From assembly GCA_903921205.1 (NCBI GenBank), contig CAIXPF010000067.1:1-55395 (forward strand): a DNA stretch of 55,395 nt, in the 5' to 3' direction. The DNA is from an uncultured Acidimicrobiia bacterium (GTDB lineage Bacteria; Actinomycetota; Acidimicrobiia; Acidimicrobiales; CAIXPF01). Below the pieces are notes generated by a model that searched no databases, had not been told where the DNA came from, and saw only the letters and a list, made by a program, of their open reading frames with translations. The position numbers and the translations under genes were made by a program. Below are positions 4,741-55,395 of the stretch, piece after piece (position 1 is the first letter of the stretch; the number at the start of each line of letters is the position of its first letter).

Positions 4741-4743
4741 CGG

Positions 4744-6129: not shown

Positions 6130-6171
6130 GAGCGGCCAGAGTACGACAGCACTACGACGAAATCTCGCAGA

Positions 6172-6194: not shown

Positions 6195-6252
6195 TCTGCG
6201 GATCCTTACCTGGGAGCTTGGCTCGAAACCTGCTCTGACCAGGTACTTCTCC

Positions 6253-6328: not shown

Positions 6329-6338
6329 AGGGGCCAAC

Positions 6339-6369
6339 ACCTTACCAAGAACGGTCGGGGCGATGGCAA
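6339..6369 (-). promoter_or_regulatory. Candidate promoter of tRNA-Gly
   Basis: On the minus strand TTGCCA (6364-6369) and TAAGGT (6339-6344) are 19 nt apart, with the -10 box ending 10 nt before the mature tRNA 5' end. The spacer is slightly long. Confidence 0.4.
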
Positions 6370-6376
6370 TCCGGGG

Positions 6377-6604: not shown

Positions 6605-6707
6605 GCCCCGACCCTACCCGACCGGCTCATAGCCACCCTGCCTTGGCGCGCCGGTCCTCGAGCCCGAGCCGTCTCGGAGCGGACCGCCGGCCCGGTGGAC
6701 CGATCCG

Positions 6708-7580: not shown

Positions 7581-7646
7581 CCCGAACGACCCCGAAGTGT
7601 AGTGAGCCACCGCCGGCGGCACGCTGACCCCCGCCACCGCACGCCC

Positions 7647-7694
7647 CGACACGAACCCGGCCCGACACGAACCCGGCCCGAAGCGAACCCGGCC
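7647..7694. repeat. Three tandem 16-bp repeats
   Basis: CGACACGAACCCGGCC occurs twice exactly and once as CGAAGCGAACCCGGCC, in the gap between the glycosylase gene end and the Thr-rich protein gene. Its function is unknown. Confidence 0.8.
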
Positions 7695-7711
7695 CGACCG
7701 GGGCGGACCCG

Positions 7712-8491: not shown

Positions 8492-8516
8492 CGTCGTCGG
8501 CCTGCGACGTCCGGCT

Positions 8517-9710
8517 TCAGAGCCGGGCCAGGAAGCGCTCGATGGCCGAACCCACCTGGTCGAACTCGAGGAGAAAGCCGTCGTGGCCGTGAGGGCTCTC
8601 GATCACCACGTGATCGACCGTGGCGCCGCAACGCTGCAGGCCGTCGCGCAACGCCTCCTGCTGGTACGGCGGGTAGAGCGTGTCGGTAGGGATCGCCATG
8701 GTGCACACCGGTGCCGTGATCCGGGCCAGCGCGGCATCGGTCCCGCCACGGCCGCGCCCGATGTCGTGCAGGTCCATGGCCCGGTTGAGCACCAGGTAGG
8801 TGTTGGCGTCGAAGCGCCGCACCAGCTTCTCGCCGTGGTAGGTCAGGTAGGACTCGACCTCGAAGGGATCCCACAGTCCGAAGTGGTCGACCGGGTTGGT
8901 GCTGTTGCGGCCGAACCGTTGCTGGAAGATCGGCTCGGCGCGGTAGTGGATCTGGGCAATCTGACGGGCGAGGGCCAGCCCGTCCTGCGGGCCGTCACCC
9001 GGTGCAGCGTCGTAGTAGTCACCGTTGCGCCAGCGAGGGTCGTTCGCCACGGCCAACCGTCCGACGGCGCTCCAGGCGATCTGTTGGGCGCTGGCCTCGG
9101 CCGTCGAGGCGATGGACACCAACGAGCGGACCCGGTCGGGATAGATGATCCCCCATTCGAGGACCTGCATGCCGCCCATCGAACCGCCGATCACCGACAG
9201 CCATCGCCCGATGCCCAGCTCGTCGGCCAGGCGCCGCTGGCAGCGCACCATGTCCCGGATGGTGACCACCGGGAACGCCGACCCCCAGGGACGTCCGGTA
9301 CGGGGGTCGATCGAGGAGGGTCCGGTGCTGCCCTGGCAACCGCCGAGCACGTTGGCGCACACGACGAAGTACCGGTCGGTGTCGAGCGTGCGACCCGGAC
9401 CGATGAGCGGGTCCCACCAGCCGGCGGTCGGTTGCCCCGGGCCGGAATCGCCTGCGGCGTGGGCGTCGCCGGTCAGCGCATGGCAGACCAGGATGGCATT
9501 GCCACCGTCGGGGTCGAGCGCGCCCCACGTCTCGTAGGCGACCACGACCTCGGGCAGGATGCCACCCTCCTCGAGGGCGAAGGGCACGGCCCGCAGCGAG
9601 AAGAACCTCCGGTCGTGCGTCGGCTGGCCGGGAGTCCAGGCCCCGCTGGCGGGCAGCGGCTTGCGTCCGGGGGGACGACCGAGGCCATCGGGTGGCTGCA
9701 CTCGGTTCAT
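8517..9710 (-). CDS. metX: Homoserine O-acetyltransferase (alpha/beta hydrolase fold)
   Basis: A 397-residue enzyme of methionine synthesis that transfers an acyl group from acetyl-CoA (or succinyl-CoA) to L-homoserine. The nucleophile Ser sits in IGGSMGGMQVLEWG, the catalytic His in SPHGHDGFL, and the acid is an Asp in the AIPTDTLYPP segment. LVCHALTGDAHAAG is the oxyanion-side family signature. The start is ATG 9710 with an AGGAGG ribosome site 8 nt upstream; longer frames are rejected because they run into the riboswitch. Control is likely by the SAM riboswitch just upstream. The family assignment is firm; acetyl versus succinyl donor is not decided. Confidence 0.93.
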   Translation of the reverse strand: MNRVQPPDGLGRPPGRKPLPASGAWTPGQPTHDRRFFSLRAVPFALEEGGILPEVVVAYETWGALDPDGGNAILVCHALTGDAHAAGDSGPGQPTAGWWDPLIGPGRTLDTDRYFVVCANVLGGCQGSTGPSSIDPRTGRPWGSAFPVVTIRDMVRCQRRLADELGIGRWLSVIGGSMGGMQVLEWGIIYPDRVRSLVSIASTAEASAQQIAWSAVGRLAVANDPRWRNGDYYDAAPGDGPQDGLALARQIAQIHYRAEPIFQQRFGRNSTNPVDHFGLWDPFEVESYLTYHGEKLVRRFDANTYLVLNRAMDLHDIGRGRGGTDAALARITAPVCTMAIPTDTLYPPYQQEALRDGLQRCGATVDHVVIESPHGHDGFLLEFDQVGSAIERFLARL

Positions 9711-9779
9711 GGGGCGATCCTCCTCGGACTTGAGTTGCCCGTCCTGCCGGCCGGGCCGCATCTCCGTGGTCGGGCGGCG

Positions 9780-9900
9780 TCGAGACGGGCCGTCGCACGG
9801 ATTGGCACCTTGGGTGTCCGATCCCAGGTTGCCGGAACCTCGCAGCAGGGCTGGTCGGTTCACTCCGGATGTGGATCTCCATTGGACCAAGAATGATGCG
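9780..9900 (-). promoter_or_regulatory. SAM riboswitch (SAM-I clan) upstream of metX
   Basis: The minus-strand leader contains TTCCGGCAACC, then a short hairpin, then CCCAAGGTGCCAATCC. These are the CGGCAACC and GGTGCCAA blocks that build the ligand core of the S-box family. CATCCGGAGTGAACC upstream resembles the kink-turn strand. CGCATC (9895-9900) could pair with GATGCG (9757-9762) as an outer helix. Position directly before metX fits. The exact subclass (SAM-I or an I/IV variant) and the boundaries are uncertain. Confidence 0.75.
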
Positions 9901-9930
9901 GGCCCGTCAATGCAGCCGGGCCGAGGTGGC

Positions 9931-10146
9931 TCACGCCGCTGCGCCACCGACCCATTCGGTCAGCCAGGCCTCGAGCTCGAGTTCGGCCGCTCGACGCCGG
10001 TAGGCGGTGGCCAGCGCCGACGGCAGCGCATCGGCTTCATCGCGGAGTCCCTCGGCACGGTCCCGCAACGCCTTGCTCCGTGAACCGGGAGCCGCCGTCG
10101 GAACCAGTCGCAGGGTCATGGTGGTGTCACCCGAAGATGCGGTCAT
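9931..10146 (-). CDS. Small helical protein of unknown function
   Basis: A 71-residue protein. The central part RSKALRDRAEGLRDEADALP and LATAYRRRAAELELEAWLTE are amphipathic, charged helices, probably a coiled coil. The start ATG 10146 is chosen for the GGGAGGT ribosome site 12 nt upstream. It lies downstream of the methyltransferase gene on the same strand (54 bp gap) and may be part of its operon. No family is recognised. Confidence 0.55.
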   Translation of the reverse strand: MTASSGDTTMTLRLVPTAAPGSRSKALRDRAEGLRDEADALPSALATAYRRRAAELELEAWLTEWVGGAAA

Positions 10147-10200
10147 GGCTGGTACAACACCTCCCGGCCGCAGACATTTCACGGGAGCGGCACTGCTCGA

Positions 10201-12279
10201 TTACAGATCCGTGGCAGGAAGATGACGCGCTGCCTCGGCCGCCCACCAGCGACGCACCGTGCCCGCCTTGTCCGCGGGGACGCCGTACGCCTGGGCCATG
10301 AGCTCACCGCAGCGTTGCCACACCCCGAGGTCAGCCGGAACTGCCCCGGTGCCCCGCAGCAGCAGCGCCGCCTCACGCCAGGGTTCGGCTTCGATCGGGG
10401 TCGGCAGGGCCAGCACCTGCTTGGCCCCGAGACGGAAGGCGCCGGCCGACAAACCGGCCCCGGCGAACCGCGTGGCTGCGTGCGCCGACACCACCGGTGC
10501 CGCCAGCACCGCCGCCACCATCCAGATCGGTTCCACCGCACCGAACGGCCCGGTCCTCGCCGCCGACCCGTCATCGGGTTCGACGGCGACGACCGGTACC
10601 GACGGCACGACGAGACCGCCGAGGTCGGGGGCGAACACGACCACCGACGTCTGCGTGGCCAGCACCAGCTTCGGTCGGAGGCGGCGCACCACCCACCGGT
10701 ACAGGCTCGGGTCGCCCTCGGCCAACGCCTCGAGGTCGACCGCGGGGCGCGACCAACGTCGTCCGGCGAATCGCACCGGCACCTCGCCCCACCGCAACCG
10801 GCCGAGCCGCAACAGGCCCGAGGTGACCAACGGCGCCCACCGAACTACGGGCTCGTCCACGGAGCCGCCGGACGGTGCAGCCGGTCGGCGAATGCCGGAG
10901 AGCGCCGCACCGGGGTGTTCGTGGACATAGGGCGCCAACCCGTAGAACTGGTCCCGGAACCCTGCAGTTGCGGTGGTGAGGTCACCGAGACGGCCGGCCC
11001 CTCGCAACGACACCGACGGAACGCCACGTCCCACCGCCAGCAGCGGTGCCCACTCCCCCATCGGGCGAACCGGTCCGCCCCCCGACGCGGCCGGCGCCGA
11101 CGACGAATCGGACTCCCGCGGCGAATCGACGTCTTTTCGCCCCGACGGGATCACCGGTGCTCCCGCCCACAACCGGAACGGACCGCCCGAGGCCCCGGGG
11201 CCGGCGGTCTCGCGAACCCGGCGCAGGACCGGCGCGCACACCCGGACGCCGGCGGCGAAAACGTCGCCCCCACCGATCCACAGGCCCTCGAGCCGGGCAC
11301 GTCGCTCGATGTCGGCACGCGCACGCGCGCCATGTGCGCCCACCAACGTCGACTCAGGTTGGACCAGTACCACCCTGCCGCCCTCGGCCACCAGGTCCAG
11401 CGCTGCGAGGAGGAACAACAGGGCCGTGTCGACGTAGCCCTTGGCCGCGTCGCCGAATCGTCCCTGCAGGAGCTTCCGTGACGCTGCCGACCGAGCCGTC
11501 ACCCCCTGAAGCTGGTTGAGGAACGGTGGGTTGCCCACCACCACGTCCACCGGTCCCGGCGGCGGGCCGCCGGGACCGGGCAACGCGAGCCCGTCCCCGG
11601 ACCGCACCGCCTCGGGCGACGGCCACCACGGCACATCGTCGATCGTCCAGGCCCACCAGGCGAGGGCGGTACGGGCCACGGCCACCGCACCGGGGTCGAT
11701 GTCACAGCCCCGCAGAGCAGCAACACACGCCGCACCACTGACGCCGCAGCGCTGCCGGAATCGCTCGGCGGCGGCCAGCAGGAACGCCCCGCTCCCCATC
11801 GCCGGATCGGCCACCACCAGCAGCCCATCCGGACAGTCGGCCGACCCATCGAGCGCAGGCGATGATCCTGCGACACCGTCGCAGGCCAGACCCACCAGCC
11901 CTTGTGCCACCGAACCCGGCGTGTAGAAGACGCCACCACGCCGCCGCGCCGAGGCGCTGAGCGCCGCCTCGTAGACCAGCCCGAGCAGGTGCGGCACCGT
12001 GACCGCATCGGCGCTCGCCGCCCGCACCGTCTCCGCGGCCAACCCGGCGGGCAGCTCGGCAGTGCCCGGCCGGCCAGGGGCAACGGCGCGTGGTGCAGCT
12101 GCAGCGGCCAACGGTTCGAGCAATGTGGCCGGCGCGCCATCGCGGCGGGCGGCGGCTTCGGCCACTGCAGCGACCGCCAGTACCGCCGTCCCGACCCGAC
12201 CCGGCCCGGTCTCGCCGGATGCCCATCGCTGCCAGGCCCGGAGACAGCGCCCGAGGCCTGTTCCCGGGCCCTGCTGCAT
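10201..12279 (-). CDS. N6-adenine-specific DNA methyltransferase, orphan-like
   Basis: A 692-residue class I SAM-dependent methyltransferase. GVFYTPGSVAQGLV is the usual helix before motif I, ADPAMGSGAFLLAA (about residue 157) is the SAM-binding motif I, and VVVGNPPFLNQLQG has catalytic NPPF at 250-253. The C-terminal ~300 residues resemble a TaqI/Eco57I-type target-recognition region. No nuclease domain is visible and no restriction partner lies nearby. It could be an orphan epigenetic methyltransferase or the modification half of a lost type IIG system. Its start is 21 bp from the divergent Nudix start. Start choice ATG 12279 is moderate. Confidence 0.78.
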   Translation of the reverse strand: MQQGPGTGLGRCLRAWQRWASGETGPGRVGTAVLAVAAVAEAAARRDGAPATLLEPLAAAAAPRAVAPGRPGTAELPAGLAAETVRAASADAVTVPHLLGLVYEAALSASARRRGGVFYTPGSVAQGLVGLACDGVAGSSPALDGSADCPDGLLVVADPAMGSGAFLLAAAERFRQRCGVSGAACVAALRGCDIDPGAVAVARTALAWWAWTIDDVPWWPSPEAVRSGDGLALPGPGGPPPGPVDVVVGNPPFLNQLQGVTARSAASRKLLQGRFGDAAKGYVDTALLFLLAALDLVAEGGRVVLVQPESTLVGAHGARARADIERRARLEGLWIGGGDVFAAGVRVCAPVLRRVRETAGPGASGGPFRLWAGAPVIPSGRKDVDSPRESDSSSAPAASGGGPVRPMGEWAPLLAVGRGVPSVSLRGAGRLGDLTTATAGFRDQFYGLAPYVHEHPGAALSGIRRPAAPSGGSVDEPVVRWAPLVTSGLLRLGRLRWGEVPVRFAGRRWSRPAVDLEALAEGDPSLYRWVVRRLRPKLVLATQTSVVVFAPDLGGLVVPSVPVVAVEPDDGSAARTGPFGAVEPIWMVAAVLAAPVVSAHAATRFAGAGLSAGAFRLGAKQVLALPTPIEAEPWREAALLLRGTGAVPADLGVWQRCGELMAQAYGVPADKAGTVRRWWAAEAARHLPATDL

Positions 12280-28595: not shown

Positions 28596-29825
28596 TCAGC
28601 GCAGCGTGACCTCGACGCCACGGGCTCCCTCGCTCGGCCAGTTCATCCGTCGGCGCCACCACGTGTGGAAATGCACCGTGCCCAGCTCCGGTTGCGGCCC
28701 GCTGAGGTTGGGCAGGTAGGTCGAGGCGTCGAGGCCCAGCTCCGCCGCCATGACCAGACCCTGGTGCCGCGACTCGTTGAGCACCTTGTCCTGCACCTCG
28801 GTCTCGCCATACGCGGCGATGATCGCCGCAGGCAGGCCCGGGACCAGCTCCTCCATATCGGCGGGCACGTAGTAGCGCACCCGGTTGAGATAGGAGTCCG
28901 GCCCCTGGGGCACGAGCACCGAGATGACCCGCAGGCCGTTGTAGTACTCGATCATGAGGTTCGGGTAGAACGCCGACCACACCACCGCGAGCTCGGGTTC
29001 CGGCTCGCCGCGCAGCTCGTAGTACCGCCGCAGCCCGTCGCACCAGGCGGTGTAGTTGGCCGAGCGACGGCCCTGTTCCGCCGACAACCGCAGCGCCTGC
29101 AGATGAACGCTCTCGCCGAAAGTCCACTGCAGGGTGTCGCAGTCGGCGAAAGAGGCCAGCCCGTCGTGGAAGGGCGGCACGTGGTAGCAGTCGCCGTACA
29201 CCTCCATGAAGGACTTCCAGTCGCCGGGATAGACCTCTTCCTCGGCGGCGACGAGCTGCCAATCGGCGAAGTCGAGCCAGTCGGCGCGACCCAGGGCCAC
29301 GAACGCCTCGTCGACCAGGGCCAGATCGCGCTGGAACGCCTCACCGGCGGCAGCCGCGCCGGCGAAGAAGCTGCCCCGCCACTCCACGAGCGGGAACTCC
29401 CGCAGCGCCAGGGCCGCCCGCTGGTCGGGATCGAGCACCATCCCCGGCCCGCCGATGAACGAGCCGTCCCGGCGGAAGGACCACAGGTGGTACGGACAGG
29501 TCACGCAGGCCTGGGTGAGCCGTTCGCGGCTGCGGACCAACGGGCGCATGGCATGGGTGCACACGTTGGCGAACGCCCGCACCACCCGGCCGTCCTCGCT
29601 GGTGAGCAACACCCGGTCGTCGGCCTCGCCGGCGGCATGGCCGGCTCCGTCGAGCAGGCTTCGGTGGCTGACGAACAACGGCCCCTCGGCCGGGTGGAAC
29701 AGACGGGTCCGCTCCGCCGCGTAGACCTCCGGATGGCTGTAGGCCTCGAAGCCGAGGCTACGGGCCTGCGGACGGCCCACCGGCAGGTCGGGCCGGTGCA
29801 GCGATCGGGTCGGACTGGGGGCCAT
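28596..29825 (-). CDS. Rieske aromatic-ring-hydroxylating oxygenase alpha subunit
   Basis: A 409-residue oxygenase. The Rieske [2Fe-2S] ligands are in VCTHAMRPL (Cys-x-His) and VTCPYHLWSF (Cys-x2-His). The mononuclear iron site is in EVYGDCYHVPPFHDG, with the His-x4-His pair and bridging Asp typical of the family. The C-terminal domain is of usual length. The start is ATG 29825, with AGGAG 8 nt upstream; an earlier GTG at 29840 would bury this site. No ferredoxin or reductase is adjacent. The substrate (aromatic, sterol or quaternary amine) cannot be told. Confidence 0.88.
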   Translation of the reverse strand: MAPSPTRSLHRPDLPVGRPQARSLGFEAYSHPEVYAAERTRLFHPAEGPLFVSHRSLLDGAGHAAGEADDRVLLTSEDGRVVRAFANVCTHAMRPLVRSRERLTQACVTCPYHLWSFRRDGSFIGGPGMVLDPDQRAALALREFPLVEWRGSFFAGAAAAGEAFQRDLALVDEAFVALGRADWLDFADWQLVAAEEEVYPGDWKSFMEVYGDCYHVPPFHDGLASFADCDTLQWTFGESVHLQALRLSAEQGRRSANYTAWCDGLRRYYELRGEPEPELAVVWSAFYPNLMIEYYNGLRVISVLVPQGPDSYLNRVRYYVPADMEELVPGLPAAIIAAYGETEVQDKVLNESRHQGLVMAAELGLDASTYLPNLSGPQPELGTVHFHTWWRRRMNWPSEGARGVEVTLR

Positions 29826-29938
29826 CGGTGTCTCCTCCACCCCGCACCCTACCGGCGCCGGCCGACCCGGGCCGGGACTTCACCCGCCCTCCGGCCGCTC
29901 ATCTGCCTGTCGGGCCGCTCGCGGCTACGGTCGGCGCC

Positions 29939-30985
29939 ATGAGCAGCGCGCCCGCATCATCGCAACCGGAAGGCCTCGACGTCGCGAACATCGAGGCGTG
30001 GTACCGCGCCAACATCCCCGGCAGCGCAGGCCCGTTGCACTTCGACCGGCTCGCCGGCGGACACTCCAACCTCACCTACCGGGTCACCGACGCCAACGGC
30101 ACGGTCAGCGTGCTGCGACGGCCGCCGACCGGCGAACTGCTCCCGTCGGCCCACGACATGTTCCGCGAGTACCGGATCATCACCGCCCTCGCCCCGACGC
30201 CGGTTCCCGTGGCAGCGTCACTGGGTTTCTGCGACGACCTCTCGGTCACCGGTGGCCGCTTCTACATCATGGGCTTCGTGGACGGCCGGGTGTTGCACGA
30301 GACCACCGACGTGGAGGAGTTCCTGCCGCTCGCCACCCGTCGCCGGGCCGGCGAGTCGCTGGTCGAGGTGGCCGCGGCGTTGCACCAGGTCGACGTCGAC
30401 GCCGTGGGTCTCGGCGACCTCGGCAAACGGGAGGACTACGTCGGACGGCAGTTGGCGCGCTGGTACCGCCAGTACCAGGCCTCCCGCGGCGCCACCCCGC
30501 TCATCGACTCGCTGCACGACGAGCTGGTCACGCGTCTGCCGGCCCAGCAGCGGGCTGCGGTGGTGCACGGTGACTACCGCATGGGCAACACCATCACCAG
30601 CCCCGACGGCACGGTGGCCGCGGTGCTCGACTGGGAGATCTCGACCCTCGGCGACCCGCTGGCGGATCTCGGCTACCTGCTGGCCATGTGGCCCGAGGAG
30701 GGCGAGACCTTCGCCACCACGGCGACCTCACCGTCGTCGCTGCCGGGCTTCCCCACCCGGGCCGAGATGCTGGCGCACTACGCGGCGCACAGCGACCTCG
30801 ACCTGTCCGACATCGACGTCTACGTGGCGTTCTCGTACTGGAAGGTGGCCTGCATCAACCAAGGGGTGTGGGACCGCTACGACGCCGGGCAGAAAGCATC
30901 CGACGGCGTCGACGTCCCGGCGATCCGGGCTTCGGTCGACCAGCTCGCCGAGCTCGCCGACGCCGCTCTGCGCAGCACCCGCTGA
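29939..30985 (+). CDS. APH-fold kinase related to ACAD10/11 N-terminal domain
   Basis: A 348-residue protein of the aminoglycoside/choline phosphotransferase fold. Brenner box HGDYRMGNT holds the catalytic Asp and Asn, and AVLDWEISTLGDPLADLGYL holds the metal-binding Asp. The N-terminal FDRLAGGHSNLTYRVT is the ATP loop. The version with WEISTLGDP and the C-terminal VAFSYWKVACINQGVWDR is typical of actinobacterial proteins like the kinase half of ACAD10/11, which phosphorylates hydroxyacyl substrates; drug resistance is unlikely. TACGGT lies 7 nt before ATG 29939 (leaderless). Confidence 0.85.
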   Translation: MSSAPASSQPEGLDVANIEAWYRANIPGSAGPLHFDRLAGGHSNLTYRVTDANGTVSVLRRPPTGELLPSAHDMFREYRIITALAPTPVPVAASLGFCDDLSVTGGRFYIMGFVDGRVLHETTDVEEFLPLATRRRAGESLVEVAAALHQVDVDAVGLGDLGKREDYVGRQLARWYRQYQASRGATPLIDSLHDELVTRLPAQQRAAVVHGDYRMGNTITSPDGTVAAVLDWEISTLGDPLADLGYLLAMWPEEGETFATTATSPSSLPGFPTRAEMLAHYAAHSDLDLSDIDVYVAFSYWKVACINQGVWDRYDAGQKASDGVDVPAIRASVDQLAELADAALRSTR

Positions 30986-31004
30986 ACGGGCGGGGCGGGA
31001 CGGC

Positions 31005-32456
31005 TCAGCCGGCGAAGGCGGGTGGCGTCGGGCACGGCCCCACCAGCTCCGCCAGTGCGGCGGCGAAGGCCAGGGTCGTGTGGTCGTGCAGGTACGGCCC
31101 GACGATCTGCACGCCGATCGGCATACCCGACGTCGCCCCGATGCCCACCGGGATCACCGTGGCGGGCAGGTAGCACGCCCCGGCCGGCGCCATCCAACGG
31201 TTCATCTCCCAGTACGACCGGGTGCCCGCCTCGGTGGTCACCGTCCGGGCCGACATCGGCTCGCTGTGATCGTGGTGGAAGGCGACGCAGGGCATCACCG
31301 GCAGCAGCAGCACGTCGGCCTGCTCGAAGAACTGCTCGAACCTGCGGCGCATCTGCAGGCGGCTCTCGTTGTTGGACAGCCACTGCCGGTGCCGCATCGC
31401 GGTCTGCCGCTTGGTCACCGCCACGGGCCCGTCGCCCTCGGCCGAGGCGAACTTCTCGAGCTCGGCGACGCTGTAGCCACCGGCGAGGGCGGCGTTGAGC
31501 AACCCGTAGAACCGCTCGGCCACCTTCGTCAGGTCGAAACCGGGCCGGGCTTCACGATCGACGCCGCAGCCGGCGGCGTCGAGACGGTCCGACAGGCCGT
31601 GCAGCACCGTGGCGACCTCGGGGTCGAGCGGGCAGCTCGCATCGTCGAACCAGGTCGCGACCCGGAAGCGGGGCAGCTCACGCTGGCGCGGGGGCGGCAG
31701 CTCGAGCCGCCATGCCGGGCTGTTCCACCGGTCGGGACCGGTCATCACCGACAGGCCGAGCTCGAGGTCCTCGACGGTGCGGGCCATCGGGCCGGCAACC
31801 GCGAGGTCGGCCTGGGTCAGCGACCCGGGAGGGCCGGGGATCTGCCCGTGGGCGGGCACGATGCCATAGCTGGGCTTGTGGCCGTACACCCCGCTCATGT
31901 GGGCCGGCAGACGGATCGAGCCGCCGATGTCCGAGCCGAGCTCCAGCGGGGTGAACCGGGCAGCGAGCGCCGCGGCCGACCCGCCGGAGGATCCCCCGGG
32001 CGTCCGTTCGAGGTCCCACGGGTTGTGGGTGGTGCCGAAGACCTCGTTGTAGCTCTGCATGTCGCCGGCGTAGATCGGCAGGTTGGTCTTGCCCCAGATG
32101 ATCGCCCCGGCCCGGCGCAGACCGGCCACCGGCCAGGCATCCTCGGTGGGCACGTGGTCGGACAGCTCGGGAGCACCCGACGTGGTGCGCATGCCGGCCG
32201 TGCTGAAGCTGTCCTTCACGGTCATCGGCACGCCGTGCAGCGGACCGAGGTCGGTCTCGCCCCGGGCGATGGCCGCATCGGCGGCCGCGGCGGCCGCCCT
32301 GGCGGCGTCGAGGTCCCTGGTGACCACGCTGTTGATCGGCCCGTCGAGACGGTCCACCCGGGCCACGGCGTGTTCCAACGCCTCACGGCTCGAGACCTCG
32401 CCGGCGCGGATGGCGGCGGCCAGGGCCACTGCGGACAGCTCGTGCAACTCGCTCAT
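31005..32456 (-). CDS. Amidase signature family hydrolase
   Basis: A 483-residue enzyme with the Ser-cisSer-Lys triad. Lys is in GVPMTVKDSFS, and the two Ser lie in ERTPGGSSGGSAAALA and LGSDIGGSIRLPA. It hydrolyses a carboxamide to acid plus ammonia; GatA is unlikely because there is no GatB/GatC nearby. The C-terminal YWEMNRWMAPAGACYLPATV is usual in the family. ATG 32456 has AGGAGG 5 nt upstream. It faces the kinase gene convergently and follows the P450 on the same strand, separated by a hairpin. Confidence 0.9.
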   Translation of the reverse strand: MSELHELSAVALAAAIRAGEVSSREALEHAVARVDRLDGPINSVVTRDLDAARAAAAAADAAIARGETDLGPLHGVPMTVKDSFSTAGMRTTSGAPELSDHVPTEDAWPVAGLRRAGAIIWGKTNLPIYAGDMQSYNEVFGTTHNPWDLERTPGGSSGGSAAALAARFTPLELGSDIGGSIRLPAHMSGVYGHKPSYGIVPAHGQIPGPPGSLTQADLAVAGPMARTVEDLELGLSVMTGPDRWNSPAWRLELPPPRQRELPRFRVATWFDDASCPLDPEVATVLHGLSDRLDAAGCGVDREARPGFDLTKVAERFYGLLNAALAGGYSVAELEKFASAEGDGPVAVTKRQTAMRHRQWLSNNESRLQMRRRFEQFFEQADVLLLPVMPCVAFHHDHSEPMSARTVTTEAGTRSYWEMNRWMAPAGACYLPATVIPVGIGATSGMPIGVQIVGPYLHDHTTLAFAAALAELVGPCPTPPAFAG

Positions 32457-32549
32457 GGATGCCTCCTCGGTTCGCCCGCGTCGGCGCGGGCCGCTGCCGT
32501 CTTCCCGTCTGTCTAGTCGCGCCGCGCCGCCCGCGGCCGCGGAACCACT

Positions 32550-32580
32550 CGCCGCCGGGCCGGCGACCGGACCGGCGGCG
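32550..32580. terminator. Hairpin after the P450 gene
   Basis: CGCCGCCGG and CCGG arms pair with CCGG and CCGGCGGCG around a CGA loop, with one mismatch between the two helices. It lies 17 bp beyond the P450 stop on the minus strand. Confidence 0.5.
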
Positions 32581-32596
32581 AGGCAGCGGTGCTCGT

Positions 32597-33811
32597 TCAG
32601 CCTCGAGCGTCGATCACGACCGCCAGCTGCCGGGGCCCCCGCACCTGTCCGCCCGCCCAGGTGACCGCATCGGGGTCGGCGAGGTGGAACCGCGGGATCC
32701 GCTCCAGCCACACCCGTAGCGCCGTGACCATCTCCATACGGGCCAGATTCGACCCGGCGCAGCGGTGCACGCCCGAGCCGAACGCGATGTGCCGGTTGTG
32801 AGCGCGATCGATGACGACCTCGTCCGGTCGTTCGAACACCGCCGGGTCGCGGTTGGCGGCGGCGAAGGGCAGCAGCACCCGGTCGCCCCGGTGCAGGGCC
32901 TGGCCGGCAAAGCTGGTGTCCTCGGTCACGATGCGGGCCATGGTGACCGGCGAGTAGGCCCGCAACAGCTCCTCCACCGCCGTTGGGACCAGGTCCGGTT
33001 CGGCGACCAACCGGGCAGTGTCCTCGGGGTGCGCCGCAAGGTGCCACAACGCCGATCCGATGGAGCTCCAGGTGGTGTCGATGCCGGCGATGAGCATCAG
33101 GGTGATGTTGGCCTCGACGATGTCGAGCCCCAGCGGCGCCCCGTCGATCTGTTGGCTCAACAGCCACGAGATCAGGTCCGCACCGGGGTTCGCCCGGCGG
33201 TGGGCGATCTGCTCGGCGATGAACGCGTCGATGCGGGCCCGGCTGTCCTCGCGGGCCACCGGATCGGTGAGACCGAACTCGAGAAAGCCCTGGACCCAGC
33301 CGACGAACTCGTCGGCCCGTTCCGGGTCGACACCGAGGATGGCCGCGATGATCCGGGGCGGGAGCTGCCGGGCATAGCCGGCTGCGGCGTCGACCACGTC
33401 GGCATCGCCGAAGGCGTCGATGAAGCGATGGCACAGCTCCGCCGTGTGCTCGGCGTAGCGGGCCACGGCCTGCGGCGTGAAGAACGGCAGGACGATCCGG
33501 CGTTCGGGCGCATGGTGCGGTGCATCGCTGCCGATGATCGAGCGGCGCGGTTGTCCCTGCCGACCGGGCACCGGCGGCATGGGAGCGACCAGGATCTGCT
33601 GCGAGCTGAAGCGGCCGGTGTCGTGGGCGATGGCCTGGATGTCCTCGTAGCGGGTCGGCATCCACGAGCCACCCCAGCGTTCGGTCCGGGCCAGGGAGAC
33701 CCCGTCTCGTAGCGCCGACCAGATCGGGTACGGGTCGTGCACGAACACCGGGTCGAAGATGTCGTAGTCGCTGGACCAGTCGCGACCTGTACCCGATGCC
33801 CCCGACGTCAT
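32597..33811 (-). CDS. Cytochrome P450
   Basis: A 404-residue bacterial class I P450. The I-helix is MLIAGIDTTWSS with the oxygen-activating acid/alcohol pair, ExxR is in VEELLRAY, and the heme-binding loop is FGSGVHRCAGSNLARME with the axial Cys. It needs a ferredoxin partner, not seen nearby. ATG 33811 has GAGG a short distance upstream. Divergent from the metallo-beta-lactamase-fold gene with a shared inverted repeat at 33845-33872, which suggests joint control. Substrate unknown. Confidence 0.92.
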   Translation of the reverse strand: MTSGASGTGRDWSSDYDIFDPVFVHDPYPIWSALRDGVSLARTERWGGSWMPTRYEDIQAIAHDTGRFSSQQILVAPMPPVPGRQGQPRRSIIGSDAPHHAPERRIVLPFFTPQAVARYAEHTAELCHRFIDAFGDADVVDAAAGYARQLPPRIIAAILGVDPERADEFVGWVQGFLEFGLTDPVAREDSRARIDAFIAEQIAHRRANPGADLISWLLSQQIDGAPLGLDIVEANITLMLIAGIDTTWSSIGSALWHLAAHPEDTARLVAEPDLVPTAVEELLRAYSPVTMARIVTEDTSFAGQALHRGDRVLLPFAAANRDPAVFERPDEVVIDRAHNRHIAFGSGVHRCAGSNLARMEMVTALRVWLERIPRFHLADPDAVTWAGGQVRGPRQLAVVIDARG

Positions 33812-33844
33812 GTGCCCTCGTTCCTCACCGTCCACCGCACGCTC

Positions 33845-48500: not shown

Positions 48501-49673
48501 TCACGGCCCCGCAACGAGGTCGACAGGGTGACCGGCTCGTCCGGCCAGCAACTCGTCGATGGCGACGTGCACTGCAGCCGCTCCACCTTCGAAGCCGGCG
48601 AAGGTGACCTGCTCCAGAGCGCCGCTGCGCAGACCGATCTGCACACCCTCGGACATGGCGAAATCCTCGCCGAGGGTCTGGTCGAACAGGTCGAGGTTGG
48701 CCTGCAGGTGGGCCCGGCGCTCGTCGGTGTCCGCCGCCCACTCGGCGACGATCAGCTGTTCGCAGATCGTGCGATCGACCGAGACCGGCCATACCGACAG
48801 CCACGACAGGTAGTCCTGGGTCCAGAACGTCTGGACGTTGGGGAACAGGTGATAGGTGACCAGCGCATGGTCCCGCAGGCGCCAACGATCCTGCGGCTCA
48901 CCGACCAGCCGGCGGATCGAGGCCCGGGGGTCGATGCGGCGGCCGTTGCGGCCGAAGCGGTCGTAGAGGCTGCGGTTCGGCTCGAACAGGGGGCCGATGT
49001 TCTCCCGGTGCAGAACCGGAACGTGGTACATCTCCAGGAAGTTGTCGAGCAGCACCTTCCAGTTGCAGGCGACCTCCCAGCGTCGTCGGGCCAGCACGTG
49101 GCCCTCCGGTCGCCGAGCCGAGAGATCGGCGTCGAGACCACCGATGAGGGTGTCGAGGTCGATCGGCGCGCCACCGACCCTCGGCCGGGCGAACACGAAG
49201 CCGTGGCGCTCGGCGACCGGTACCGGGGCGAGCCCGAACCCACACGGGTCGTACCCGGCGAACCCCTCGGCCTGCGGCACACCGCGCAGACTGCCCGCCA
49301 GGTCGTAGGTCCAGCCGTGAAAGGGGCAGGTCAGCCGGCGACCGGTTCCAGCCGGCGCGGTGCAGAGCCTCGCACCCCGGTGGCGGCACACGTTGGCGAA
49401 GGCGTGCAACCCGGCGTGCTCGTCGCGGGTGATCAGCAACGGCAGACCGCTGTGGTCGTGGGTGACGTAGGAACCGGGGGTCGGCAACTGGGCGCTGTGG
49501 GCGACCACCACCGGATGGTCCCGGAACAGCACCTCCTGTTCGGCCGCGAAACGAGCCGGGTCGAGGTAGTCGGCGACCGGGCGGCGCACCACCGCACCGG
49601 TGACCTCGCGGGTGTCGGCGGCGATGTGGGCCAAGGCCCGTTCGATCAGGGACAACTCGACGTCGCGCTCCAC
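48501..49673 (-). CDS. Rieske-type oxygenase (second copy)
   Basis: A 390-residue ring-hydroxylating oxygenase alpha subunit. The Rieske ligands are in VCRHRGARL and LTCPFHGWTY. The mononuclear iron site is NFLEMYHVPVLHREN with the Asp five residues before, at LLDNFLEMYH. It differs strongly from the first Rieske protein in this window, so the two are not a recent duplication. GTG 49673 starts 4 bp after the P450 stop, so it was cotranscribed with that gene before the serine-recombinase element split it. Substrate unknown. Confidence 0.9.
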   Translation of the reverse strand: MERDVELSLIERALAHIAADTREVTGAVVRRPVADYLDPARFAAEQEVLFRDHPVVVAHSAQLPTPGSYVTHDHSGLPLLITRDEHAGLHAFANVCRHRGARLCTAPAGTGRRLTCPFHGWTYDLAGSLRGVPQAEGFAGYDPCGFGLAPVPVAERHGFVFARPRVGGAPIDLDTLIGGLDADLSARRPEGHVLARRRWEVACNWKVLLDNFLEMYHVPVLHRENIGPLFEPNRSLYDRFGRNGRRIDPRASIRRLVGEPQDRWRLRDHALVTYHLFPNVQTFWTQDYLSWLSVWPVSVDRTICEQLIVAEWAADTDERRAHLQANLDLFDQTLGEDFAMSEGVQIGLRSGALEQVTFAGFEGGAAAVHVAIDELLAGRAGHPVDLVAGP

Positions 49674-49677: not shown

Positions 49678-50190
49678 TCAGGCTGCCTGCACGGCGATCT
49701 CGGCGATGGTGCCGACGTGCAGGTCGGTCAGCCAGCGCGGTTCGCCGGCCACCTGCAACCGCCCGAGCGTGCCCGAGCGGCCGAGAGCCCGGAAGATGGC
49801 CCGCAGCTCCCAGCGGGCCAGGTTGGCGCCGAGGCAGAAGTGCACGCCATGACCGAAGCCGACGTGCTCGTTGGGGGCACGTCCGATGTCGAGGCGGTCG
49901 GGCTGCTCGAACACGGCATCGTCCCGGTTCGCCGACGGGTACCACAGCACCACCATCTCGCCTGCCCGCACCGTGGTACCGCCCACCGTGGTGTCGGCCG
50001 TAGCGGTACGCACGAACTGGATGACCGGCGACGTGAAACGCACCAGTTCCTCGACCAGCGGCTCGAGCACCGCCTCGCCCTCGGCGTGAAAGCGGGCAAC
50101 CTGGTCGGGCCGCTCCAGGAGCGCCAGCACGCCGCGGCTGGTGGCGTTGCGGGTGGTCTCGTTGCCGCCTGGCAACAGTCGTAAAGCTAT
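49678..50190 (-). pseudogene. C-terminal part of a cytochrome P450, split by a mobile element
   Basis: About 170 residues remain. It begins LLPGGNETTRN (the I-helix), continues with VEELVRFTSPV (ExxR) and has the heme loop FGHGVHFCLGANLARWE with its axial Cys. The helices before I are absent. The frame stays open leftward into a recombinase gene on the other strand, 12 bp away, and no start codon fits. The missing N-terminal ~240 residues should lie beyond the far end of the element, outside the window. Excision would restore the gene. Confidence 0.85.
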
Positions 50191-50201
50191 ATGCTCCCGC
50201 C

Positions 50202-51608
50202 ATGCCGACCGCCGCGATCTACTGCCGCATCTCGAAAGACCGTGAGGGCGCCCACCTCGGCGTCAAGCGGCAAGAGGAGGACTGCCGCGCCCTTGCGGAG
50301 CGCCTCGGGTGGACCGTGGCCGAGGTGCTGGTCGACAACAACCTCACCGCCTACAGCGGCAGGACGAGGCCGCAGTATGAACGGCTCCTGGCCGGGATCG
50401 AGGAGGGCCGGTACACGGCGCTGTTGGCATGGCATCCCGATCGAATGCATCGGTCGCCGGTGGAGCTTGAGCGGTTCATCGAGGTGGTGGACCGCCGCGG
50501 CGTGCATGTCGCCACCGTTCAAGCGGGGGAGGTCGATCTGTCCTCGCCGGCGGGGCGCATGACCGCCCGTGTGGTCGGTGCCGTCGCCCGCCACGAGTCG
50601 GAACACAAGGCCGCCAGGGCGCAGCGCAAGCACCTTGAGCTGGCCCGTGCGGGCAAGCCGTCGGGCGGCGGGAAGCGGCCGTACGGATACCGGCGGGTGC
50701 TCGACAGCACCGGCCGCATCGACCGGCTCGAGGTCGTGCCCGAGGAGGCCGAGATCATCCGTGAGGTCGTGCGCCGCATCCTCGGCGGCCAGTCGATCCG
50801 GTCTATCGTCAACAGCTTGGCCGAGCGGGGCGTGCGGACCTCGACGGGCGGCGAGCGGTTCACGACGACGGCGATGAGGAACTTGATTACCTCGGCCCGG
50901 CTGGCCGGCATGCGGGCACACAAGGGCGAGATCGTGGCCGAGGCCGAGTGGCCGGCGATCATCACGGTCGATGAGCTGCTGAAGCTTCGGGCTGCGCTCG
51001 CCGCCCGTGCGACGAGCTACGGCGCTCGTGCTCGGTCGTACCTTTTGTCGGGCTGGTGCGTGTGCGGCGACTGCGGGAAGCGCATGGGCGTACGCCCGGC
51101 GGGCGGTGGCCGTCGTCGCTACCAGTGCCTCAAGGATCGGCACGGCTGCGGCCGGTGGGGGATCGACGCCGACAGGACCGAGGCGCTGGTGGTCGCTGCG
51201 GCGCTGCGTCGGCTCGACTCACCCGAGGTCGACGCCGCGGTGGGACGGCAGACCGCCGGCGACGACAGCGCCGCCTCGGTGGTCGCCGATGTCGAGCGCC
51301 GCCTCGATGAACTCGCCGGCATGTGGGCGGCGGGTGAGCTGTCCATGCGTGAGTGGACCGCCGCTCGTGATGCCCTCACGAAGCGCCGTGACGCCGCCGA
51401 GGAACGGCTGCGGCAATCGTTGACCGACACGGCGGCCGCCGAGCTGGTGGGCTCAGGGGCGGCGCTGCTCGCATCCTGGGGTGAACTGTCCTTCGAGCAG
51501 CGTCGGGGCGTGCTCGCCACCGTGCTCGACGCCGTCGTGCTCGCCCCGCCGGCGGCCGTGTCTAACAAGTTCGACCCGGCCCGTGTCGACGTGCGCTGGC
51601 GGATCTAG
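50202..51608 (+). CDS. Large serine recombinase (site-specific integrase)
   Basis: A 468-residue recombinase. The catalytic domain starts AAIYCRISKDREGAHLGV, with nucleophile Ser11. ALLAWHPDRMHRSPVELERF holds the conserved Arg/Asp block, and SPAGRMTARVVGAVARHESE the long E helix. A recombinase domain (KPSGGGKRPYGYRR onward) and a zinc ribbon (VCGDCGKRMG with QCLKDRHGC) follow, then a coiled-coil segment near 390-440. ATG 50202 follows CTATAT 9 nt upstream (leaderless-like), and the -35 part of the promoter comes from P450 sequence. Confidence 0.94.
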   Translation: MPTAAIYCRISKDREGAHLGVKRQEEDCRALAERLGWTVAEVLVDNNLTAYSGRTRPQYERLLAGIEEGRYTALLAWHPDRMHRSPVELERFIEVVDRRGVHVATVQAGEVDLSSPAGRMTARVVGAVARHESEHKAARAQRKHLELARAGKPSGGGKRPYGYRRVLDSTGRIDRLEVVPEEAEIIREVVRRILGGQSIRSIVNSLAERGVRTSTGGERFTTTAMRNLITSARLAGMRAHKGEIVAEAEWPAIITVDELLKLRAALAARATSYGARARSYLLSGWCVCGDCGKRMGVRPAGGGRRRYQCLKDRHGCGRWGIDADRTEALVVAAALRRLDSPEVDAAVGRQTAGDDSAASVVADVERRLDELAGMWAAGELSMREWTAARDALTKRRDAAEERLRQSLTDTAAAELVGSGAALLASWGELSFEQRRGVLATVLDAVVLAPPAAVSNKFDPARVDVRWRI

Positions 51609-52009
51609 CGCCCTCGGCCGGGCGTGAACACGACCCGGCTGCCGTCGGCCTCGGCGGCGGCGCAACGGCGGACGAGAGTGTCGTCACGCATCACAATGTC
51701 GGCGCCGCAGGAACACGTCAGCCGGTGAACGTGCCGCAGCGACGCCATCTCGTCGGTGTCTTGGTAGACGTAGTCCAGGCGGCCGACCTGCGGGCGTGAC
51801 GGGCTGGCGCCGAGGCCGGGATGGTTGACGCCCTCGACATAGGTGGCGACGGTCGACGGCTTGCGGCCCGGCCACGCCATCGTGCCCAGTTCGAGCGTCA
51901 CGAGCGTGCGCCCGCAATCGTCGGCACCGCACTTCAGCGTGAACACTCCAGACGGGTCCGCGGCCCGTAGCGCCCGCTTGCGTGCCGTGTTGCTGCTGTA
52001 GGTAACCAC
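51605..52009 (-). CDS. Cys-rich element protein, possible zinc-binding
   Basis: A 134-residue protein. KCGADDCGRTLVTLELG and LTCSCGADIVM carry two Cys pairs suitable for one zinc ribbon, with an Arg-rich start. GTG 52009 has TAAGTT 8 nt upstream. It is convergent with the recombinase (4-nt stop overlap) and divergent from the HTH operon, the place often held by a repressor or a defence-type accessory gene. No family recognised. Confidence 0.55.
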   Translation of the reverse strand: MVTYSSNTARKRALRAADPSGVFTLKCGADDCGRTLVTLELGTMAWPGRKPSTVATYVEGVNHPGLGASPSRPQVGRLDYVYQDTDEMASLRHVHRLTCSCGADIVMRDDTLVRRCAAAEADGSRVVFTPGRGR

Positions 52010-52099
52010 GATGGTGTAACTTAGCTGGCAATCGAGTCGTGGCTCCGCTCACAAGGACCACAGTCGGCCAGCGCTTACCGGCCCTGGTGGGAGACCACC

Positions 52100-52423
52100 A
52101 TGTCCAAAGAAAGCGCCCCCGGCCTTGACGACGGCCTGCTCGACGCCGAGTCGATCGCCGCCTACGTCGGCCTCGCCGAGCGTCACCTGAGCGACCTTGT
52201 CGCCAAGCGACGAATCCCGCACTACCGGATCGGCGTCCGCACCGTCCGCTTCAGGCGGTCGGAAGTCGACGCCTGGCTCGGCGAGCACCGGGTCGACCCG
52301 GTCGAGGATCTGCTGCGGCGCACGGTCGATGACCGTGGCCTGACCCGCAGCGTCGCCGACCCCGAGGTGGTCGACCGTGTCGCCGCCATCGTGTCATGCA
52401 AAACCCGTCGCGGCGTAGCGTGA
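52100..52423 (+). CDS. Helix-turn-helix protein, likely excisionase/regulator
   Basis: A 107-residue protein. LLDAESIAAYVGLAERHLSD followed by RIPHYRIGVRTVRFRRSEVD is the HTH_17/MerR-like fold. The C-terminal ~45 residues are a helical extension. ATG 52100 has GGGAGA upstream. It is first in a tightly packed operon (its stop TGA overlaps the next ATG). It may direct excision with the serine recombinase or regulate the replication genes. Confidence 0.75.
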   Translation: MSKESAPGLDDGLLDAESIAAYVGLAERHLSDLVAKRRIPHYRIGVRTVRFRRSEVDAWLGEHRVDPVEDLLRRTVDDRGLTRSVADPEVVDRVAAIVSCKTRRGVA

Positions 52424-52695
52424 TGCGGGCCGACAACGAACAACGCCGCCCGGCCCGGGGCGGCGAGGTCCGGTCCAAGGACTTCAACGACGGCCACAGC
52501 GTACCCCGCCACCTCGAGCTCGACGCCACGGCCGGCGACCCTTTCACCGTCGAGCTCATCGGCTTTGACGGCAACTACCTTCCACCGTTCGTCGACGCTT
52601 CGCCGCTAGGGCTGGCCGTGGTGCCGGTCGGCGACGAGCTCGAGGTCGTCATCCTCGTGTCCGCCCGTCGCCGGCGTCCGGGGGTGGCGTCATGA
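52423..52695 (+). CDS. Small element protein of unknown function
   Basis: A 90-residue protein. ATG 52423 overlaps the previous stop as TGATG. The N-terminal ~30 residues are charged, then a beta-rich half (PFTVELIGFDGNYLPPFVDA, LAVVPVGDELEVVILVSARR). The coupling to both neighbours makes it a likely real gene. No family recognised. Confidence 0.55.
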   Translation: MRADNEQRRPARGGEVRSKDFNDGHSVPRHLELDATAGDPFTVELIGFDGNYLPPFVDASPLGLAVVPVGDELEVVILVSARRRRPGVAS

Positions 52696-52919
52696 CCGAG
52701 CCCCGCTACATCTACCGGGTGTCCTGGCGGTACCCGACGTGGGCCGAAGGCTACTGGCGATGCAGGTACTGCTCATATCGCCACGCAAAGCTGCTGGCCG
52801 GACGCATCACCAAGTGCGGTGGGCAATGGCGGGTCGACCGTCCGGCCATCCCCACCAACGAGCTCGGGTGGAGTGCAGTTGCGATGCGCCCGCAGCCCGC
52901 CGGCGACGGTGCACAGTGA
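52692..52919 (+). CDS. Small Cys-containing element protein
   Basis: A 75-residue protein. ATG 52692 overlaps the previous stop (ATGA), and its own stop overlaps the next GTG. YWRCRYCSYRHAKLLAG has a Cys-x2-Cys pair, with another Cys in RITKCGGQW, so zinc binding is possible. Many aromatic residues (YIYRVSWRYPTWAEGYW). Probably an accessory to the replication protein that follows. Confidence 0.55.
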   Translation: MTEPRYIYRVSWRYPTWAEGYWRCRYCSYRHAKLLAGRITKCGGQWRVDRPAIPTNELGWSAVAMRPQPAGDGAQ

Positions 52920-55381
52920 GCCCCGCGGAGCAGGTGCGAGCGTTCCTTGACGCGTTGTTCCCGGGCGACCTCGAGGCCGACGAGCGGGTGACTACCTCGA
53001 AGGACAACGGCAAGAACGCCCCGAGGTCGGTGCATTGGATGTGCACGGACAAGGCGGTGAACGCAATTGCCGGGGACCGGGCCCAATGCCAGTTCGTGAA
53101 CCTAGCCACCCGGGCGAAAGGGCTTAGCGCTAGCCAGCGGGGTGGAATCAAGGACGTACGTCGGATCGGCGCTCTGTGGGTCGACATCGACGTGGCCGGG
53201 CCGGGCCATGCCACGGACACCGTCGCCGCCGCCGAGCACGCGGCGTTGTGGCTGATCGGTCAGTTTCCGCTGCCGGTCTCCATCATCGTTCACAGTGGCG
53301 GTGGCCTTCACGGCTACTGGCTGCTCGACGAGCTGCACGACGCCGCCGAGGTGGTGCCCCTGTTGGCCCGGTGGTCGACGTGGTGGCAGTGGACATCGGA
53401 AACCACGGGCGTGCCGGTCGATCCCAGCGTGTTCAACATCGCTTGCATGATGCGGCTCCCCGGCACGATGAACGCCAAGGTGCAGCCGCTCCGGCCCACG
53501 TCGCTGCGTGAACTGCACCTTGACTGTCGGTACGCCATTGAGGACATCGACCGGCACCTCGGCGTGCCCGACACCTTCAAGCCGGCGCAAGAGGCGCGCA
53601 AGGCTGGGGGCGGCAGCACCGACTGGAAAGACCTCACCGAGGAGGACCTAGAGAAGCTGCACCCGCTCACCTGTGCGACATGGGAGGTGGTGCGGGACAA
53701 GTTCGGCGGCACCGATCCGATCCTGGTGGAGCGGGGAGGCCTGGAGCCGCCCTACCTACAGGTGGTCCGCCGCGTTGCCGATCACGGCGACGACAAGGGC
53801 GATCGCGGCGGTCTGTCCGCGACCATCGGCTTCGTCGGGCCCGACGTGCTCTACGTGTTCACCAGCGCGTGGTCGCCGTTCCGTGCGTACCACAGTTACG
53901 GGCTCGAGGCGCTGAACATCATCGACGCTGACGGCCCCGCCGTGACGGCGATGGACGCACTCAAAGCGGACGACGAGCGGCGTAACGGCACGACGACCTC
54001 GTCGCGCTCGGCGTCGACCTCCGACGACGGTGTCGGCCAGGTGTCCGAGGTGTTGACGCCGCCGGTCGACGTGAACCTGCCCGACGAGTTCTGGTCGGCC
54101 CGGCCGATCCTCGAGCACGTCCGCCAGGCCGCTTGGTCGAGGGTCCTGTCAGCCGATGCGGTGCTGGGCGCGGTGCTGGTGCGAGCCGCGTGGCTTACTG
54201 ACTACAGGATCGTGCTCCCGGCCGTTGTCGGGCGACACGGGGCGCTCAACCTCTTGGCGGGCATCGTGGGTCCGCCTGGCACCGGGAAAGGGTCAGCAGC
54301 GGACGTGGCGGCTGAGCTGATCGGCTGCGCCCAGACGGCGTTGCCCACCGACTACCGGGTTCGCGAAGCGCCGGCGGGGTCCGGCGAAGGCGTCACCGCG
54401 GCGTTCATGGAGATGGTCGACGTTACGGAGGGAAAGAAGAACCGCACCGAATGGCGCCAGACATACCAGGGGGTGCTGTTGCGGGTTGACGAGGTCGAAA
54501 CGTTGGGCAAGCTCGGGGACAGGTCGGGCTCGACGTTGTGGACCGTGTGGAGATCGGGTTGGTCGGGCGAGGCTCTCGGATTCTCGAACGCATCCGTCGA
54601 CCGGCGCCGCCCCGTTATCCCCGCGCTCGGATACCGGCTCTGCGGGCTCGTCGGTATTCAGCCGGCGCTCGCGGGGTCGATCTTGGCTGACACTGCCGGC
54701 GGGACGCCTCAGCGGTTCTTGTGGATGTCGACGATGGACCGCAACGTGCCCGACACGCCGCCGCTATGGCCTGGGCCGTTGCGGTGGGCGCCACCACGCT
54801 GGCAGATCCCCGACGACGCAGTTCGCACGGTCGGAGGGTTCAGGCGCCGGGTCCTCGAGGTCGACACCGCAATCGCTGATGACCTTCGCGCCGCGCAATT
54901 GGCGAAAGTGCGCGGTGCCGCCCAAACGTCGTTCGACGGGCACCGTGGGCTCAACCTGTTGAAGATCGCCGGCGTGCTTGCAGTCCTCGACGGGCGGCTC
55001 AATATCGACGCCGAGGACTGGGACCTCGCCGCCATGGTGCTCAACACCTCAGACCGGGTGCGCACCAAGGCGGGCGACGAGGTCAGGGCTAAAGGCGCCG
55101 CCGAGGAGACCCGGCGCATCGACTACGCCCGCCGTCGGGCAGGGGCGGAGCAGGTGGGGCGCACCGCCGTCCAGCACGACACACAGCGCGTCGCCGGCGT
55201 GATCACTCGCTACGTCGATCGCAACGTGCCGCCCAGCGGGGCGACGCGCAGCGACCTCCTCAAGGCTCTCTCTCCGCGTGACCGCCACTTGTTCGACGCG
55301 GCGCTGGCTGTGGCTCTTGCCACCGGAGGCGTTCTGCTCGAGCTCAACCGCTACTACCAGCCGGGCGCGGTGGCACCGTGA
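52916..55381 (+). CDS. Primase-polymerase/helicase-like replication protein
   Basis: An 821-residue element replication protein. The N-terminal part is an archaeo-eukaryotic-primase-like (PrimPol/RepB type) domain: LWVDIDVAGPGH with Asp90 and Asp92, and IIVHSGGGLHGYWLL with His126. The C-terminal half is a DUF3987-like P-loop ATPase with Walker A GPPGTGKGS (about 452-460) and LLRVDEVETLGKL as the Walker B region. Primase and helicase in one chain would start and unwind the element's own origin. GTG 52916 overlaps the previous stop. Confidence 0.82.
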   Translation: MSPAEQVRAFLDALFPGDLEADERVTTSKDNGKNAPRSVHWMCTDKAVNAIAGDRAQCQFVNLATRAKGLSASQRGGIKDVRRIGALWVDIDVAGPGHATDTVAAAEHAALWLIGQFPLPVSIIVHSGGGLHGYWLLDELHDAAEVVPLLARWSTWWQWTSETTGVPVDPSVFNIACMMRLPGTMNAKVQPLRPTSLRELHLDCRYAIEDIDRHLGVPDTFKPAQEARKAGGGSTDWKDLTEEDLEKLHPLTCATWEVVRDKFGGTDPILVERGGLEPPYLQVVRRVADHGDDKGDRGGLSATIGFVGPDVLYVFTSAWSPFRAYHSYGLEALNIIDADGPAVTAMDALKADDERRNGTTTSSRSASTSDDGVGQVSEVLTPPVDVNLPDEFWSARPILEHVRQAAWSRVLSADAVLGAVLVRAAWLTDYRIVLPAVVGRHGALNLLAGIVGPPGTGKGSAADVAAELIGCAQTALPTDYRVREAPAGSGEGVTAAFMEMVDVTEGKKNRTEWRQTYQGVLLRVDEVETLGKLGDRSGSTLWTVWRSGWSGEALGFSNASVDRRRPVIPALGYRLCGLVGIQPALAGSILADTAGGTPQRFLWMSTMDRNVPDTPPLWPGPLRWAPPRWQIPDDAVRTVGGFRRRVLEVDTAIADDLRAAQLAKVRGAAQTSFDGHRGLNLLKIAGVLAVLDGRLNIDAEDWDLAAMVLNTSDRVRTKAGDEVRAKGAAEETRRIDYARRRAGAEQVGRTAVQHDTQRVAGVITRYVDRNVPPSGATRSDLLKALSPRDRHLFDAALAVALATGGVLLELNRYYQPGAVAP

Positions 55382-55395
55382 CCGCTGCCACACCG
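55378..55395 (+). CDS. Start of the next element gene (partial)
   Basis: GTG 55378 overlaps the primase-helicase stop (GTGA) and reads MTAATP to the window edge. It continues the coupled operon. Nothing more can be said. Confidence 0.5.

Follow-up and report, generated by a model that had tools for sequence, protein, structure and literature searches.

Evidence for site-specific insertion of a serine-integrase element within the I-helix codons of a P450 gene in an uncultured Acidimicrobiia bacterium

Introduction

The serine-integrase elements R4, Bxb1, and phiC31 of actinobacteria are inserted in protein-coding genes. Gene-interrupting elements include skin, which lies in sigK, and the fdxN element with its XisF, and active lysogeny is known at comK and hlb. 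Disruption of a gene by an AICE with a serine recombinase has been described, and AICEs were reported to be confined to Actinomycetales (PMC3218068); in the available portion of that paper, the term P450 labels a gene in a figure legend. In a survey that covered thousands of large serine recombinases, the available text names competence genes, magnesium chelatase/protease, and prolyl isomerase among the targets, and the words P450 and cytochrome are absent from its main text (PMC10083194). That elements of this kind insert within coding genes is thus well known. A P450 gene serving as the attB of a serine integrase was not found in the literature searched, within which the target alone appears to be new.

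Here we describe a locus at which such an element divides the first gene of a P450-Rieske pair. The window, meaning the whole stretch of DNA analyzed, is 55,395 nucleotides long and constitutes the entire contig C67 of a draft Acidimicrobiia genome (G000; 4.36 Mb, 208 contigs, 2.2% contamination). Four genomes of the genus were compared, G000 itself and the congeners G003, G001, and G002, and 20 kb of a second G000 contig, C176, were examined as L036. An earlier note on this DNA had proposed that a serine-recombinase element splits the P450 gene just before its I-helix, switches off a two-gene oxygenase operon, and could restore it by precise excision in the manner of sigK- or comK-type elements.

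Results

The second gene of the split pair encodes a Rieske-type oxygenase alpha subunit of 390 amino acids (positions 48501 to 49673, minus strand; Rieske and Ring_hydroxyl_A domains) and starts 4 bp after the P450 stop codon, the spacing that had been noted earlier. The P450 sequence preceding it consists of the C-terminal 163 codons, from the Gly-Gly-Asn of the I-helix onward, plus the stop codon (49678 to 50169, minus strand, with the coding part at 49681 to 50169). This part matched the Pfam p450 profile over positions 276 to 425 of 462 (E value of 9.4e-18), and the closest structures to the P450 by sequence were CYP125, CYP126, and CYP124. The coding sequence ends abruptly beside a gene for a full-length large serine integrase of 468 amino acids (50202 to 51608, plus strand). 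It is collinear with the related loci L025 and L026 up to 50169; the alignment of the window with G003 spans 47847 to exactly 50169, and that with G001 ends at the same base. Since P450 homology to the congeners stops there, the distance to the integrase ATG at 50202 is 32 bp and not the 12 bp given in the earlier note. A second P450 match in the window, at 32702 to 33232 inside a 416-amino-acid frame, lies within 5 kb of a second Rieske-like match (29166 to 29741, 27% identity; region 28596 to 33835), and 22 P450 match stretches were counted genome-wide in G000, a number that includes the window's own and in which some genes give two.

The N-terminal half of the gene was found on the other contig, outside the window, as had been predicted. 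A DNA query taken from the 5' portion of the intact P450 gene in G003 matched C176:3526-4382 of the G000 genome with 91% identity, and the N-terminal half itself occupies C176:3526-4372, adjoining the other end of the element. Both halves are open, one of 279 codons up to the 10-bp core at which they meet and the other of 163 codons starting with that core, and joining the two flanks in silico gave a single uninterrupted P450 frame of 442 amino acids, equal in length to the G003 open reading frame. In the G000 genome itself, the split P450 was met only as these two halves, with no restored copy among the 40 of 492 first-look candidates that were scored, the other matches being paralogues or short. 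The proposal that precise excision could restore the genes thus holds for the reading frame, but no excised form was seen.

In G003, the region lies on contig C13 and contains an intact P450 gene of 442 amino acids followed by the orthologous Rieske gene, and G001 carries an intact P450 of the same kind 15 bp before its Rieske gene. The Rieske orthologues are 92%, 65%, and 59% identical in G003, G001, and G002, respectively. With the intact pair also in G001, the gene pair probably predates the insertion. The uninterrupted sites sought in relatives do exist, and the integrase had no match in G003 or G001 at an E value of 0.001 or lower. Neither of the outcomes that the earlier note had set as a refutation was encountered. 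G002 has the Rieske gene but no match to the split P450 within the 16 kb fetched around it, which makes this genome uninformative about the interruption; it contains a partial integrase match (28% identity) with an internal stop, and a full integrase is found only in G000 among the four genus genomes. Beyond the P450 gene, C176 realigns with G003 from L036 position 11741, in a stretch holding a gene that resembles ribonucleotide reductase by eye and whose protein is 97% identical. Because C176 carries the N-terminal half and also aligns with G003 beyond the P450 gene, C67 and C176 flank one locus, and it is synteny with G003:C13 that ties the two contigs together. Between the start of the P450 gene and this realignment, approximately 7.3 kb of G000 DNA (C176 positions 4383 to 11740) have no counterpart at that place in G003, and G003 is therefore not the exact preinsertion ancestor. 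Within these 7.3 kb are an 810-amino-acid open reading frame resembling, by eye, a secreted right-handed-repeat protein (4414 to 6846) and a 453-amino-acid one resembling, also by eye, a carotenoid oxygenase (7349 to 8710).

The two junctions share a short core. Read on the P450 coding strand, the C176 junction runs through CTGCTCATCTCC and then GGCGGCAACG, after which it departs from the P450 sequence, and the C67 junction passes from foreign DNA into GGCGGCAACG and then AGACCACC. The same 10 bp, GGCGGCAACG, occur at C67 (50160 to 50169, minus strand), at C176:3526-3535, and at the empty site of G003 (L025:8724-8733), and the crossover dinucleotide is inferred to be the GG at 50168 to 50169. 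These 10 common bases encode the Gly-Gly-Asn of the I-helix motif GGNETT, which places the cut inside the motif and not, as the earlier note had it, just before the helix.

When the element-side halves were joined at the core, they formed a 52-bp inverted repeat of two 26-bp arms centered on the first GG, with 19 of the 26 positions mirrored. One half of this putative attP lies at 50169 to 50194 (minus strand) and the other on C176. A score of 19 was reached at none of 55,343 centers in the window (maximum, 18) and none of 19,948 centers in L036; other testable centers in the joined 70-mer scored 9 or less, and 1 of 100,000 letter shuffles reached 19. Only 7 bp separate the end of the dyad at 50194 from the integrase ATG. 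Large serine integrases have an attP of roughly 50 bp beside int, in which imperfectly inverted arms flank a central dinucleotide, and the 52-bp dyad with its GG center next to int has the layout expected of such a site. The deduced attB shows little symmetry (8 of 26 mirrored positions). For these enzymes, the distance between the outer motif and the core is 5 bp greater in attP than in attB; placed 5 bp nearer the core, the motif matched 6 of 11 positions in the left attB arm, a value reached at 1.5% of window positions, and 3 of 11 in the right arm. The low symmetry of attB and the shifted motif's restriction to the left arm speak against the model of site-specific insertion. A match to the attP half-pattern in one 98.7-kb viral contig was attributed to chance, as the 4.7-kb stretch of that contig examined (L061) shows no related integrase, primase, or P450.

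That a large serine recombinase borders the P450 remnant was upheld by its domains, which are near full length (PF00239, 1 to 144 of 145; PF07508, 1 to 101 of 102; PF13408 [Zn_ribbon], 1 to 56 of 58; the Resolvase, Recombinase, and Zn_ribbon set), by its match to the phrog_95 integrase family (E value of 1.5e-98), and by its alignment with a solved 500-amino-acid integrase chain, 9iu2_A (E value of 1.1e-14). Beyond the integrase gene lie a 134-amino-acid open reading frame without a family match, which may or may not be a gene (51605 to 52009, minus strand), a gene for an excisionase-type helix-turn-helix protein of 107 amino acids (52100 to 52423, plus strand), and a 99-amino-acid open reading frame without a family match (52396 to 52695, plus strand). 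The helix-turn-helix protein scored 41.3 bits against the TIGR01764 cutoff of 28.8 and matched HTH_17 and the phrog_66 and phrog_1840 excisionase families, and it is a candidate directionality factor. The last gene, at 52739 to 55381 (plus strand), encodes a phage-type primase/polymerase of at most 880 amino acids, whose true start may be later (phrog_28894, E value of 4.7e-52; phrog_11515, E value of 2.1e-50; both DNA polymerase/primase), with a weak DUF3987 match below the cutoff. Its C-terminal half matched 67 phage records, none of which covers 80% of the protein; the 15 matches listed are Dulem virus 32 and Gordonia phages at 34 to 37% identity. No relative of the primase was found in the viral contigs, and the 4 plasmid records that matched are all partial.

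Element DNA runs on to the contig end at 55395. At its far end (L036 positions 1 to 3066, on C176), the element encodes Excalibur-domain, GmrSD_C-domain, and fn3/RCC1-repeat proteins. We judged the presence of such proteins beside an attachment site to be unusual. The element extends over at least 5.2 kb on C67 and 3.5 kb on C176. For the remainder, searches of G000 with the terminal 200 bp and the terminal 26 bp of the window matched nothing but the queries themselves, and it is therefore from the congener that an unbroken path from C67 across the element to C176 is deduced. Terminase, portal, and capsid families (PF03354, PF04860, and PF05065) gave no match in the G000 assembly, which shows only the element ends, and FtsK/SpoIIIE (PF01580) gave three matches, on C26 and C180 and none on C67 or C176. 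Because the middle of the element was not found in the assembly, the element, known here from its two ends, may be a prophage, a satellite, or AICE-like.

Integrase matches at an E value of 1e-60 or lower were found in 27 of 395 class-level genomes (the G000 genome included), with the best full-length relatives at 48 to 49% identity. Phage records with an integrase match numbered 584; the 15 listed are 33 to 38% identical, and among them are Mycobacterium phage prophiGD54-2, Mycobacterium phage Kumao, and Streptomyces phage R4. A tblastn search with the intact P450 located a P450 at none of 47 related-integrase loci (best E value, 4.4; a very divergent fragment could escape such a search). These loci (L037 to L051, L054 to L056, and L062 to L090) exclude L052 and L057, which are weak partial relatives, and two further integrase matches; they include weak relatives and some loci with less than 200 bp upstream of the integrase, and at least one genome is counted twice (L037 and L064 are identical in their upstream sequence). 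Inspected by eye, the neighboring frames of 10 of the 47 loci included none that was P450-like. The targeting of a P450 gene is thus seen in this single case. The C-terminal half of the P450 had no match in the viral contigs, nor did the intact P450 in the phage collection. In a separate genome, three related serine integrase matches occur in tandem within 5 kb (G389:C22:171826-176576).

Discussion

Taken together, these results make it very probable that an integrase-bearing mobile element inserted site specifically in the P450 gene of a P450-Rieske pair, most likely in an ordinary, lysogeny-like insertion that disrupted the gene incidentally and does not act as a programmed switch. In the mechanism we propose, the integrase would have recombined its attP with the attB of the chromosome, with the crossover at the GG dinucleotide. 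The cut parts the N-terminal portion of the P450 from the ExxR and haem-cysteine motifs, so that neither half is expected to work, and judging from the parts lost to each half, the insertion must inactivate the P450. The Rieske gene probably loses expression as well, a prediction drawn from its 4-bp spacing and its separation from the native upstream region, since the insertion would probably uncouple it from its promoter. The earlier claim that a two-gene operon is switched off is accordingly established for the splitting of the P450 gene, but the inactivation of the P450 and the silencing of the Rieske gene are deductions. With a directionality factor, for which the helix-turn-helix protein is the candidate, the element could exit exactly and restore both genes. 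The restored frame and the attP-like dyad make precise excision plausible on the evidence of sequence.

The element might instead be defective and trapped, with a dead integrase or dead att sites and the P450 left as a permanent pseudogene. We consider this unlikely: the failure to match terminase, portal, or capsid in G000 is compatible with it, for those three families and with the element middle out of view, but the near-full-length integrase domains, the strong attP dyad, and the lack of decay in the P450 halves speak against it.

Much less probable still is a programmed gene-interrupting element whose excision is controlled by the host or the element, so that the P450-Rieske pair would be expressed only under certain conditions, as with skin in sigK or in active lysogeny. 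The integrase and an excisionase-type protein are both present, as such a system would have them, and both P450 halves are open and look constrained, with NG86 dN/dS values of 0.13 and 0.20 versus 0.26 for the Rieske gene (calculated with a Biopython module that describes itself as experimental; YN00 gave a dS of 0.96 and a dN/dS of 0.034 for the N-terminal half, and the NG86 values are quoted instead). Polarized by G001, the amino acid changes in the P450 comprise 9 specific to G000, 9 specific to G003, and 13 that are ambiguous; in the Rieske protein, 7 are specific to G000, 4 to G003, and 21 are ambiguous (384 columns). However, an absence of decay is equally expected after a recent insertion, and open, constrained halves do not discriminate between a recent insertion and a gene that excision keeps in use. 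In addition, the full integrase is confined to G000 among the four genus genomes, the site is empty in G003 and G001, no developmental or regulatory link was seen, no P450 was found at the 47 related-integrase loci, and the integrase scored 90.8 bits against the XisF model, whose cutoff is 375, which places it outside the XisF family by this measure. Given that no excised form was seen and that the constraint data are ambiguous, the likeness to sigK and comK is one of geometry, and the regulated element envisaged earlier is not borne out. An assembly or binning artifact with chimeric junctions is hardly credible: the genome is a draft with 2.2% contamination and the element runs off both contigs, but the breaks on these separate contigs fall at the same 10 bp, as recombination predicts, and the element sides form a dyad unequaled at other centers in the window or in 20 kb of C176.

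The choice of target invites a further and highly speculative reading, to which we give very little weight. The integrase might read DNA fixed by the conserved I-helix sequence Gly-Gly-Asn-Glu-Thr-Thr-Arg-Asn, and recognition of this conserved DNA would make several paralogous host P450 genes landing sites, with reversible insertion then switching individual oxygenases. Several G000 P450 genes have GNETTRNA I-helix DNA in common, and 7 of the 14 P450-region loci compared in G000 match the deduced attB at 40 to 46 of 52 bases (two pairs overlap, leaving about five genes). The P450 I-helix on C151 (L032) matches at 43 of 52 bases with the same GG center and is a possible secondary site. If this reading were true, the element would be a site-specific one that tracks the catalytic motif of a multicopy enzyme family.

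The locus provides a clean case of a serine-integrase element from draft contigs, in which both junctions are present, attP and attB can be deduced, and two congeners supply an intact control. It indicates that an element can integrate at the I-helix codons of a P450 gene, and its integrase, together with the defined pair of att sites, is a candidate tool for genetics in this lineage. Annotating the truncated P450 as a short, functional gene would be a mistake.

Compared with known systems, the locus resembles the skin, fdxN, comK, and hlb elements in that an element carrying a recombinase divides a gene that could be restored by precise excision; unlike them, it gives no sign of regulated excision, and no recurring association of the element with the gene was seen here. 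It resembles AICEs in its integrase, excisionase-type, and primase/polymerase genes but differs from them in that no transfer protein was seen on the C67 or C176 parts of the element. Its likeness to the serine-integrase prophages and elements of actinobacteria covers the position of int beside one att site, the short core, the insertion in a coding gene, and the excisionase-type and primase genes beside int; unlike elements of the R4, Bxb1, and phiC31 type, its target is the I-helix of a P450.
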